DNA from: an uncultured Mycoplasmataceae bacterium
Lineage (GTDB): Bacteria > Bacillota_I > Bacilli_A > Mycoplasmatales > Mycoplasmoidaceae
Length of the DNA stretch: 64,000 nt
Assembly: GCA_949282725.1 (NCBI GenBank)
Contig: CASDPP010000001.1
Location: 186,001 to 250,000 of the forward strand
Reading direction: 5' to 3'
The translations under genes were made by a program, and so were the position numbers. How positions within the stretch are numbered: position 1 is the first letter of the stretch; the number at the start of each line of letters is the position of its first letter. The notes under the pieces are model-generated. The model made no database searches. It saw only the letters and a list, made by a program, of their open reading frames with translations, and was not told the DNA's origin. Positions 49,528-53,290 of this stretch are shown piece after piece.

Positions 49528-50916
49528 ATGATCATTAGAAAAAAAACTAAAATTACTGAAAAGGATTTTTTGTTAAAAAAAAAATTATTATCTTTAGGCA
49601 ATAAAAAAAGTTTTTTTATTAGAACCTATGGTTGTCAATCTAACGTGAGAGATTCTGAAAATATTTCTGGAATATTAAAAGAATTATCTTTTAAACAAGT
49701 GAATTCCATAGAAAAAGCTAACTTAATAATTCTTAACACTTGCACAATAAGAGAAAATGCAAATGATAAGGTTTTTGGCGAAATAGGATTATTAAAAAAA
49801 TATAAACAAAAAAATAAAAAGTTAAAAATTGGAATTTGTGGCTGTATGGCTCAAGAACAACACATTATTGAATTAATAAAAACAAAATATCCACAAGTTG
49901 ATTTTGTTTTTGGCACAAACAATTTAGATCAAATACCAGAAATTTTAGACCAAGTAATTAATAAAAACAAAAGAATTTTTCTTGTCAAAGAACAACCAGA
50001 ATCTTTATTTAATAATTTACCTTCGTTAAGAAATTCTAAAGTTAAAGCTTTTGTCTCAATCATGCAAGGGTGTGATAATTTTTGTTCATATTGTATAGTC
50101 CCTTATGTTAGAGGACAAATGGTCTCAAGATCAAAAGAAGCAATTTTAAATGAAATAAAAGAACTAATTAAAAAAGGTTATAAAGAAGTCACTTTATTAG
50201 GGCAAAATGTAAATTCTTATGGAATAGATAAAAAAAATAATTATTTTTTTTGGGATTTGTTGGATGATGTTGCTAATTTAAAAATTCCAAGAATTCGTTT
50301 TGTTACATCAAACCCTTGAAATTTTAATAAAAAGATAATTGATATTATGGAAAAACATCCTAACATTATGCCTTATCTTCATTTACCGGTTCAATCGGGT
50401 GATGATGAAATTTTAAAAAGAATGAATCGAAAAACAAAAATTAATAAGTATATGAATTTAGTTAAAGAAATAAAAACTAGAATTAAAGATATATCTATTT
50501 CTACTGATATCATTGTTGGTTTTCCAAATGAAAATAAGAAAGCTTTTGAAAATACAATTAAAATGTATAAAAAACTAGAATTTGATAATGCTTATACATT
50601 CATTTATTCACCAAGAAAAAATACACCTGCTGCAAAAATGAAAGATGATGTATCATTTAAAGAAAAACAAAAAAGATTATATGAATTAAATAAATTAGTA
50701 AAATTTTATGCACAAAAAAATAATGATAAATATTTAAATAAAGTTGTTGAAGTCTTAGTAGAAGGAAAATCAAAAAAAAATAGCTCAGTTTATACCGGCT
50801 ATTCAAAACAATGAAAAGTTGTTAATTTTGAAGGGAAGTGTAAAATAGGAGATCTTGCTAACGTTAAAATAACAAAAGCATTAAATTTTTCACTTTTTGG
50901 AAAAAAGATTAACTAA
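49528..50916 (+). CDS. miaB: tRNA-2-methylthio-N6-dimethylallyladenosine synthase
   Basis: A radical-SAM methylthiotransferase acting on A37 of tRNAs that read U-starting codons. It is 462 aa. The N-terminal UPF0004 domain holds three cluster Cys (YGCQ, NTCT, CGCM); the radical-SAM triad is CDNFCSYC; a C-terminal TRAM domain follows. A run of ten A (49575-49584) encodes Lys codons near the start. Two Trp at conserved sites are TGA. The stop overlaps the end of the convergent LRR gene by 3-4 nt. Confidence 0.95.
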
Positions 50917-51869
50917 ATCTTAACTGTTGTTTTTTTCTTTTTAGATAGATATCAAATTGCAAATCCTATTGCTAATAAAATCGGAATACCTAAACCAAAT
51001 ACTAGACCTAAAATTAATCCTGTATTTGATTTTGATTCTGGTGGTAAACCAATTTCAACTTGATCACGACTAAAACCAAAGTTTGATGCATCTAAATATG
51101 CTTGTTTTGCTGCTTCTGATGGGACATAGACTTTGCCTGTTACTGTAGGTTGTCATAAACTACCAAATGTTGGTGGTGTTTCTGATAAGAAATATATATT
51201 ATCAAGTCTAGCAGTAGAACTAAAAGTACCTTCTCCAATACTTGTTACACTAGAAGAAAATATTAATTCTCCTGTTATGTTAGAATTAATATCAAAAGCA
51301 TTATCTCCAATACTAGTTAAACTTGTGGCTTTAGATAAATCTAGTGAAGTGATAAATGCGCCTCGAAAAGCAAGGTTTCCTATACTTTTTACATTAGATC
51401 GAATCACTAAATCTCCTGCTAGTTTGCTACAGCTTTCAAAAGCACTATTTTCAATAGTGGTCAAATTTGTAGCTTGTGATAAATCTAATGAGGTAATTTT
51501 TGTTCTTCTAAATGCATTATTAGAAATAGTAGTTAAACTTGTAGCTTGTGATAAATCTAATGAGGTGATGTTCTCATTACCATAAAAAGCATTGTTTGCT
51601 ATTTCTGTAATATTTGAAGCAACTTGTAATGTCCCTGTTCCTTCAGCATACCCTGTAATTACTGTTCCTTCGACATTTACAGTAATATCACCCATTTTTC
51701 TTTGTTCTGCATTTGTTTGATTTGTAACATAATTATTTAATGAATTGTTGTTATCTTCAGTAATAACTTTTTGTGTGTTTTGATGTTGATTATTAAATCC
51801 AATACCTGCTAAAGGACTTAATAATGTTAACGAACTTAATAGTTTGTTAATTGTTTTGATTTTTTTCAT
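50913..51869 (-). CDS. BspA-like leucine-rich-repeat surface protein
   Basis: 318 aa. Layout: N-terminal signal peptide (about 1-25), a spacer with NQTNAEQRK, about five LRR_5-type repeats of about 24 residues (roughly 60-215) with the core ITSLDLSxATxLTTI and NAF, a beta segment with VPSEAAKQAYLDA, and a C-terminal membrane anchor (about 290-308) with a Lys-rich tail. This is a surface-exposed repeat protein of the BspA/Treponema LRR type used in adhesion. Two repeats share 28 identical nucleotides. The promoter has a 17-nt homopolymer spacer, suggesting phase variation. The stop overlaps miaB. Confidence 0.85.
51467..51566. repeat. Direct repeat pair inside the LRR gene
   Basis: A 28-nt sequence at 51467-51494 recurs without change at 51539-51566, 72 nt (24 codons) apart. 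It corresponds to two successive leucine-rich repeats. A third, diverged copy lies near 51320. The identical copies allow repeat-number change by slippage or recombination. Confidence 0.8.
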
Positions 51870-51892
51870 AATTTTATTTAATTTATATGAAC

Positions 51893-51922
51893 ATTATAAC
51901 AAAAAAAAAAAAAAAAACACAA
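51893..51922 (-). promoter_or_regulatory. LRR-gene promoter with T17 spacer (candidate phase switch)
   Basis: On the minus strand: a -35-like TTGTGT (51922-51917), then a spacer of 18 nt almost entirely T (the plus strand shows 17 A, 51901-51917), then TATAAT (51898-51893), with the ATG 23 nt further on. Gain or loss of single T residues would change the -35/-10 distance, the same design as the Vlp promoters of Mycoplasma hyorhinis. Confidence 0.7.
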
Positions 51923-51930
51923 GAGGGTAG

Positions 51931-51955
51931 TAAAAAAATAGGAAAAAACCCTATT
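51931..51955 (-). terminator. Terminator of the DEAD-box helicase gene
   Basis: On the minus strand a 6-bp stem AATAGG / CCTATT with a 7-nt loop is followed by a run of T, 15 nt after the helicase stop and just before the LRR-gene promoter. Confidence 0.6.
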
Positions 51956-51970
51956 ATTTTTAACTATATT

Positions 51971-53290
51971 TTAACTGTTGTTTTTTTTATATTGTTTATC
52001 TATGTATTGTCTTTTTAATTTTTGTTTTATTTTTTGAATTTGTTCTTTTAATTTTTTCTTATAACATGGTTTTATTTTTTTATTGATGTTAATTAAACAT
52101 TTAATTTTAGAATTATTTTTTGAATCAATTAAAGGCTTTTGGTATTGTTTTATATATTTCTTTTTATTTTTTAATTTATTATCTTTATCAATATATAAAT
52201 AATTCCATGAAATATTTTTTTTAGTTAGTCTAGATAATTGAAAATCAATATTTTTCTTATAGATAACATAACTTGTTCCAGTGTTATTAACTCTTCCGAC
52301 ACGTCCTGAACGATGTATGTATCATGTGTCATCTTCTGGCAAACCTACTGAAATTACTACATCAACAAAAGGTAAATCAATTCCTCTAGCAAATAAATCT
52401 GTTGTAATTAAATATTGATATTGATTTTTTTGAATATTTTGAAAAATACTTTTTCTTTTTCTTGGAGAAGTGTTTTTATTAACTAAAGTCATTTTTAATT
52501 TTAACGGCTTTAATTGTTGATAAATGTTTTCAGATTCTTTTAAAGAATTAGTAAAAATAATACAAAAAAATGGATTAATATGCGAAAGAAACTTTTTAAG
52601 TGTTTCTATATGATTGTCATTAAAACTATAAACTACATTGTGAATGATTTGATCATTGATTCATATTGATTTAGTTGAAGAATAAACAGTGGTATTTTTA
52701 AAATATTTTTTCAATTTATTTGAAAATGATTCGTGAATTGTGGCAGAACAAGCAATTTTTTGTAGTTTATCATTATCAATCATATTAAAAATATCATCAA
52801 TAACATGAACAAATCCATAATCAAATAAAGTATCTGCTTCATCTAAAATAATTGATTTAATATCTTTATCAATAATTTTTTCTTTTAATAAATCTTGAAT
52901 TTTTGTTGGTGTTCCAATAATAATTTTAGGTTTTATTCTTTTGATTTTTAATATTTGATTTTCATGTGATAAATCGGCTGCACACGAAAAAAAACTTAAT
53001 TGATTATTGTATTGTTTAAACTCATTTAATAATTGATAAATTTGTAAACATAATTCTTTTGTAGGAACAACAATTAAACATTCTGTTTTTTGATCGAATG
53101 ATAAATTTTGTAAAATAGGAATTAAATATGAAAGTGTTTTACCACTACCTGTTTTAGAGACAATAATCATGCTTTTTCTTTCTAAAAGATGTGGAATAAC
53201 ATTTTCTTGAACGTTTGTTAAACCAACAAAATGTTTTTTATTCAAATAATCTAAAATTCATTTTTTTAAATTCAATTGTGAAAAATTCAT
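51971..53290 (-). CDS. DEAD-box RNA helicase
   Basis: 439 aa. Motif I is SKTGSGKT, Ia PTKEL, II DEAD (ILDEADTLFD), III SAT, V TDLFARGID and VI HRSGRVGR. The C-terminal about 75 residues are extremely rich in Lys, Ile and Gln, an RNA-binding tail. Likely roles are ribosome assembly or mRNA decay at low temperature (CshA/CsdA type), but the exact orthology cannot be decided here. Three TGA Trp codons. The ATG is 5 nt after leuS. Confidence 0.92.

Follow-up and report, generated by a model that had tools for sequence, protein, structure and literature searches.

Poly-T promoter spacers recur across a BspA-type LRR gene family in an uncultured Mycoplasmataceae bacterium: a probable set of slippage-prone promoters

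Promoter and LRR gene at the locus

We analysed a 64,000-nt stretch of DNA (the window; C1:186001-250000) from the genome of an uncultured Mycoplasmataceae bacterium, which comprises 593,293 bases in 6 contigs (C1 to C6). The features of interest, numbered from the first base of the window, are the following.

50913..51869, minus strand: gene for a BspA-type LRR surface protein of 318 aa (code 4), with its ATG at 51869
51884..51888, minus strand: predicted transcription start at about 51886, placed from the position of the -10
51893..51898, minus strand: -10 hexamer TATAAT, read from the sequence
51901..51917, minus strand: T17 homopolymer (A17 on the plus strand), a putatively slippage-prone tract
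51917..51922, minus strand: -35-like hexamer TTGTGT, a 3/6 match to TTGACA
51937..51955, minus strand: terminator-like hairpin AATAGGG...CCTATT followed by a T run, with a weak predicted fold (-9.4 kcal/mol)
51964..51982, minus strand: apparent remnant of the 3′ terminus of an earlier-lying paralog, AACAACAGTTAAAATATAG, which codes for ..TTVKI-stop

An earlier sequence-only reading had proposed that a 17-nt homopolymer fills almost all of the spacer that separates TTGTGT from TATAAT upstream of a BspA-like surface gene, and both parts of this description hold. The homopolymer is the A17 at 51901-51917 of the plus strand, and read on the minus strand the order is TTGTG-T17-G-T-TATAAT, 31 nt 5′ of the LRR gene ATG. 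The 17th T belongs both to the tract and, as its last base, to TTGTGT; the spacer between the two hexamers is 18 nt (T16-G-T, 51916-51899). The TGT at 51901-51899 directly precedes TATAAT, giving a perfect extended -10 (TGnTATAAT). From the predicted start, the leader is about 17 nt long, with no evident Shine-Dalgarno sequence.

The downstream protein matches LRR_5 with 146.4 bits against a cut-off of 27.7 (E 5.3e-43) and thus carries the LRR_5/TpLRR repeats of BspA-type proteins. Its layout consists of a basic, hydrophobic N-terminus without Cys, an LRR_5 ectodomain, a C-terminal membrane segment (residues ~283-308) and a KKKK tail. Hydropathy shows one strong segment, at the C-terminus (up to 2.59 over 19 residues), and an N-terminal segment that stays below 1.3. 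Cys is absent from the first 30 residues in all 30 family members examined. The LRR proteins are predicted to be exposed at the cell surface.

Two general promoter searches of the window passed over this site. A consensus promoter scan returned 18 matches, below the 23.1 expected from shuffles, and the T17 promoter is missing from its list because TTGTGT agrees with TTGACA at only three of six positions. A survey of 58 ORFs found 17 upstream regions with a gap of at least 50, 13 of them with a -10; this survey kept the last -10 match and so missed the T17 promoter's own -10, and its 13 promoters are too few to describe -35 use.

The terminator-like hairpin lies between the upstream helicase gene and the T17 promoter. 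Its fold has a z score of -1.73, with 12 of 200 shuffles folding equally well, and similar hairpins of the form AATAGGG...CCCTATTTTTTT recur in many paralog promoters. The helicase gene itself (51971-53290, minus strand; DEAD-box-like by eye) has its out-of-frame end within AACAACAGTTAAAATATAG, apparently the final codons of a BspA paralog. The LRR unit looks as if it had been copied here from a tandem array. Elsewhere in the genome, GTTAAAATATA is found within 110 nt upstream of 12 of the 32 family starts described below, three of which are cut by contig ends.

Recurrence of the tract across the gene family

A whole-genome comparison with the 318-aa protein gave 109 matches, and scanning the family loci yielded 32 start sites of the MKKIKTINKLLSSLTLLSPL kind. 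The tract is present at 16 of these starts, absent from 13 and cut off by contig ends at three, two of which end exactly where the tract would begin (T-GCTAAAAT). Thus, 16 of 29 assessable paralog starts carry the tract, each in a promoter of its own. The genome contains 17 A/T runs of at least 15, and 16 of them lie 27-32 nt 5′ of a family ATG, with T on the sense strand in every case (16/16). Their lengths are 15 (one tract), 16 (five), 17 (two), 18 (four), 19 (two), 20 (one) and 21 (one). The promoters share the pattern TTG[C/T]-T(15-21)-G-N(1-2)-TAWAAT. TTG[C/T] on the 5′ side and TAWAAT on the 3′ side flank all 16 tracts, columns 5′ of TTG are more variable, and TG occupies the extended -10 position (TG[T/C]) in 14 promoters. 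The seventeenth run, a T23 at the start of contig C2, lies 3′ of a family gene without promoter flanks.

These runs stand well apart from the background. With a first-order Markov model based on the window, the expected number of A/T runs of at least 15 is 0.28 for 64 kb and 2.6 for 593 kb; the window contains one such run and the genome 17. The true background is stricter than the model: the window has 52 A/T runs of 8, two of 9 and one of 10, and the only other genomic run of at least 11 is a single T11 at C1:300958. All 134 overlapping 11-mer matches are accounted for, 133 by the 17 runs and one by the T11; runs of 12, 13 or 14 are therefore absent from the genome. We rejected a chance origin, as the model comes nowhere near to placing 16 of 17 runs at the same position with respect to a single gene family. 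Since the promoters are related by descent, the 16 tracts do not represent 16 independent events, and they probably descend from a few ancestors through duplication.

The sequence-only reading had considered a single promoter; the same tract at 16 paralogs, with lengths that differ between near-identical promoters, goes beyond it. We compared lengths in the three pairs of promoters whose flanks are most alike, a comparison between paralogs of one assembly in which homopolymer counts may be wrong by a base or more. In the first pair, the window gene has T17 and C4:4157 has T19, with 31/31 downstream bases identical and 2/25 upstream mismatches. C3:740 and C3:2019 have T17 and T18, with no mismatches downstream and two upstream, and C3:7683 and C6:1347 have T18 and T16, with 1/29 mismatches downstream and 1/25 upstream. 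We read these length differences as probable signs of slippage. The implied spacers are 16-18 nt in eight promoters and 19-22 nt in eight.

Members without the tract include some in which the same promoter module seems to have contracted, with T7 at C1:59764 and C2:1228 and T6 at C4:343. Tract-bearing and tract-less members are intermixed in an N-terminal tree, with at least 10 changes and with 20 of 27 inner branches left open. Separately, early frameshifts occur in two tract-bearing paralogs, L033 (C1:133392) and L039 (C3:740), the latter adjoining a T9 run in the coding sequence. Many contig ends (C1:322385, C2:1 and 25603, C3:176094, C4:4321, C6:1 and 6492) lie in or beside family genes. 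The assembly thus breaks at the LRR family, and copies of the family are therefore probably missing.

Tract sets in related genomes

Across 95 family genomes, including the window's own, T14-N(1-5)-TAWAAT was found in 24. Two congeners have tract sets of their own: G043, with six loci (T14-18), and G053, with nine (T15-17). Reversed control patterns gave no matches in either genome. In G043 (L138-L143), one of the six loci precedes an LRR_5 protein (E 1.8e-28). At three of the six, a G-run is seen by eye near the beginning of the ORF, and two of these three ORFs seem to be out of frame, which suggests two stacked switches. In G053, eight of nine loci have GAAGTTAWAAT in common; within this group, the leader contains a CA repeat in seven cases, and a MKKFSFKK start is recognisable by eye in six. 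The ninth locus precedes an unrelated, metabolic-looking gene. The MKKFSFKK family (L130, L132-L137) is surface-protein-like and combines a T15-17 tract with a long CA leader repeat in most copies; at L134, two T-tract promoters face each other a few hundred bases apart. Pfam comparison assigned no family to one G053 protein or to three non-LRR proteins of G043.

Outside G000, G043 and G053, the T-pattern occurs at one or a few places per genome, in some cases before non-surface genes; the L082 site, for example, precedes an RNA polymerase alpha-like protein (identified by eye). The tract cannot be called a general feature of BspA genes, since it is missing from most of the remaining congeners that have LRR relatives. 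A poly-A version of the promoter pattern is absent from the window's genome; on a first reading, it occurs here and there in 19 of the 95 family genomes. A collection of genome contigs gave nine stretches with the promoter pattern, all in other lineages judged by their titles, and viral contigs gave no match to the pattern and no relative of the 318-aa protein. In the relative G083, L127 has an A84 run directly 5′ of TAAAAT, which is probably an assembly artefact.

A further observation concerns pyruvate:ferredoxin oxidoreductase (PFOR), which has been called unique to Ca. M. girerdii among mycoplasmas in the available text of one report (PMC5476646). The genome studied here shares PFOR with Ca. 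M. girerdii (L148, C2:11650-15111), and within the genus 25 of 36 genomes have a PFOR match that exceeds the cut-off. PFOR puts the organism close to Ca. M. girerdii in kind, but its lower G+C content and lack of dinucleotide repeats (both given below) argue that it belongs to a different species.

Explanations for the tract

We think it likely, if short of firm, that the tracts make up a Vlp-like system in which promoter spacers across the BspA-LRR repertoire are prone to slippage. In this model, a module consisting of the terminator-like hairpin (in many copies), TTG[C/T], T15-21, G-N-TAWAAT, a short leader and a signal-peptide start would drive members of a lineage-specific BspA-LRR surface family from at least sixteen copies. 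Slipped-strand events during replication would add or remove T's, shifting both the distance and the helical phase between the -35 and -10. Tracts of about T15-17 (spacer 16-18) would allow good transcription, and longer or shorter ones would transcribe poorly. The prediction that spacers of 16-18 nt are on and those of 19-22 nt are off derives from general knowledge of promoters. Each copy would slip independently, and a population would therefore be a mixture of cells with different LRR proteins. In other mycoplasmas, a layout of this kind allows individual genes to flip on and off, and the cell could thus shuffle the surface proteins that it displays. Slippage in living populations, with an on/off or a graded effect on transcription, is what we would expect from this arrangement. 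The response could be graded rather than on/off, since 14 of the 16 promoters have an extended -10 that could lower dependence on -35 spacing. The weak -35 match, the unswitched T-tract of vpma and the 13 of 29 assessable starts that lack a tract also count against slippage control.

The same extended -10 fits a different explanation, in which the T-tract is a fixed structural element that strengthens the promoter and whose length drifts with little effect on expression, as for vpma. There are precedents for such a role: a vpma T-tract directly 5′ of the -10 is reported to have yielded no negative variants (PMC2268961), and a long T string 5′ of the Borrelia vmp promoter is described as raising transcription (PMC4534519). 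However, simple tolerance of long tracts would leave unexplained why runs of 12-14 are missing and why runs of at least 15 occur almost only here, and it does not explain the length differences between near-identical promoters. We therefore regard a purely structural role as possible but unlikely.

It is also conceivable that the 5′ module (hairpin, promoter and signal-peptide start) functions chiefly in recombination, as a site for the duplication, exchange or movement of paralogs, with the tract as a by-product or break point. Identity averages 93% in the signal peptide and 61% over residues 31-120 among 14 tract genes, paralogs occur in tandem arrays, two contig ends (C1:322385 and C6:6492) coincide exactly with the promoter, and a paralog 3′-end relic lies at 51964-51982. 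Yet each tract gene has a complete promoter of its own, which does not imply a single expression site, and identity over the 30-nt promoter core averages only 69% (91 pairs, ungapped). On balance, we consider this explanation improbable.

We give very little weight to the suggestion that the tracts and their exact lengths are sequencing or assembly artefacts. Homopolymers this long are error-prone, and the T23 at the start of C2 has no promoter flanks, but flanks are conserved on both sides at sixteen loci, runs of 12-14 are absent elsewhere, and similar tract sets occur in two other genomes of the genus. We rejected a pure artefact on these grounds. We likewise rejected the least credible alternative, that the tract is the U-run of the upstream helicase gene's intrinsic terminator with no promoter role: a terminator-like hairpin does lie upstream, but it has its own, separate T run, T17 begins later, after ACTACCCTCTTGTG, and ends two bases before the -10, and the tract recurs 5′ of family starts.

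Returning to slippage-prone spacers as the preferred explanation, a more ambitious version can be formulated, although we doubt that it will hold: at least sixteen independent promoter-slippage switches would run the BspA-LRR repertoire, and congeners would stack a second switch on the first (an early-ORF G-run or a leader CA repeat), in a genus that has many PFOR-bearing members and, in our view, stands close to Ca. M. girerdii, a symbiont of trichomonads. If this were true, transcription would determine surface identity as a combinatorial code, and this code might be adapted to a protist partner and not to vertebrate immunity. The 16 natural alleles from T15 to T21 on nearly one promoter could reveal how spacer length controls mycoplasma transcription, a point on which the reports for vlp and vpma are contrary.

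Comparison with known systems

The sequence-only reading held that control by promoter-spacer homopolymers is established in mycoplasmas through the Vlp system, which agrees with published accounts in which indels in the -35/-10 spacer switch transcription of vlp, maa2 and vmm (PMC2268961, PMC10502178). As here, M. hyorhinis vlp has a homopolymer in the promoters of a surface-protein family, described as a poly-A in every member, each with its own transcript. In our genome, the homopolymer makes up most of the -35/-10 spacer in all 16 tract promoters, and the tract lies in the own promoters of many members of one surface-protein family. In contrast to vlp, the sense strand carries T rather than A, and the products are LRR proteins without an N-terminal Cys rather than lipoproteins; an N-terminal Cys signal was found in 0 of 30 members examined. 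The vlp family is reported to have seven members (PMC7954426), compared with at least 16 loci here, where switching is predicted only. By analogy, the LRR family appears to work like the vlp system while standing outside the Vlp protein family.

Spacer indels also switch a surface protein in M. arthritidis (maa2) and M. mycoides (vmm), both single genes as described, and the vmm switch is a dinucleotide repeat, unlike the homopolymer here. The spacer repeat of maa2 is poly-T. M. agalactiae vpma resembles our locus in having a T-tract directly 5′ of the -10 of a surface-protein promoter, but there one promoter is described for the whole locus, with Xer1 recombination as the switch (PMC2268961). 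The same source reports the vpma T-tract as having no role in variation, with expression left unswitched; because of this, tract position alone is no proof of a switch. Given 16 separate promoters, a vpma-type inversion by a site-specific recombinase is unlikely here. In M. gallisepticum vlhA, as here, each family gene is described as having its own repeat-controlled promoter, but the repeat is a GAA trinucleotide 5′ of the promoter, outside the spacer (PMC6258824, PMC4534519). No trinucleotide repeat of at least five units (vlhA-type GAA) was found in 153,305 bases that take in the window and the loci of the family, nor were dinucleotide repeats of at least five units found in the same bases.

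The sequence-only reading also held that the arrangement, on an LRR adhesin-like gene, looks undescribed. That judgement stands for this promoter type on a BspA-LRR family, since we found no report of a promoter-spacer homopolymer on such a family in the open-licence literature, as far as its available text extends. It does not stand for the components: promoter-spacer slippage is already described for vlp, maa2 and vmm, and phase variation of BspA-like genes is known. In M. agalactiae, the available descriptions of the BspA family do not mention a repeat, and spma genes are described with poly-G in their 5′ untranslated regions (PMC12103780, PMC2824730). Ca. M. (Malacoplasma) girerdii is reported to have an expanded BspA-like LRR family, tandem-repeat phase variation and PFOR, and its BspA-like repeats are given as mostly dinucleotide, with on/off states inferred from frameshifts (PMC5476646). 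Its genome has a G+C content of 28.6% and a size of 619-629 kb, compared with ~25% (in the window) and 593 kb here. Two length-variable homopolymers are mentioned in the text available from Costello 2017, which names only one of them, a methyltransferase G8, so that a BspA gene could be the site of the other. The difference in repeat type is thus between a promoter homopolymer here and, as far as described, mainly dinucleotide repeats in the BspA-like genes of Ca. M. girerdii. If our preferred explanation is correct, BspA-type LRR genes, whose phase variation has so far been reported in Ca. M. girerdii and there mainly with frameshifting dinucleotide repeats, would also be switched at the promoter, and across a whole family. 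What distinguishes the present case from the known kind is this family-wide scale on LRR genes.
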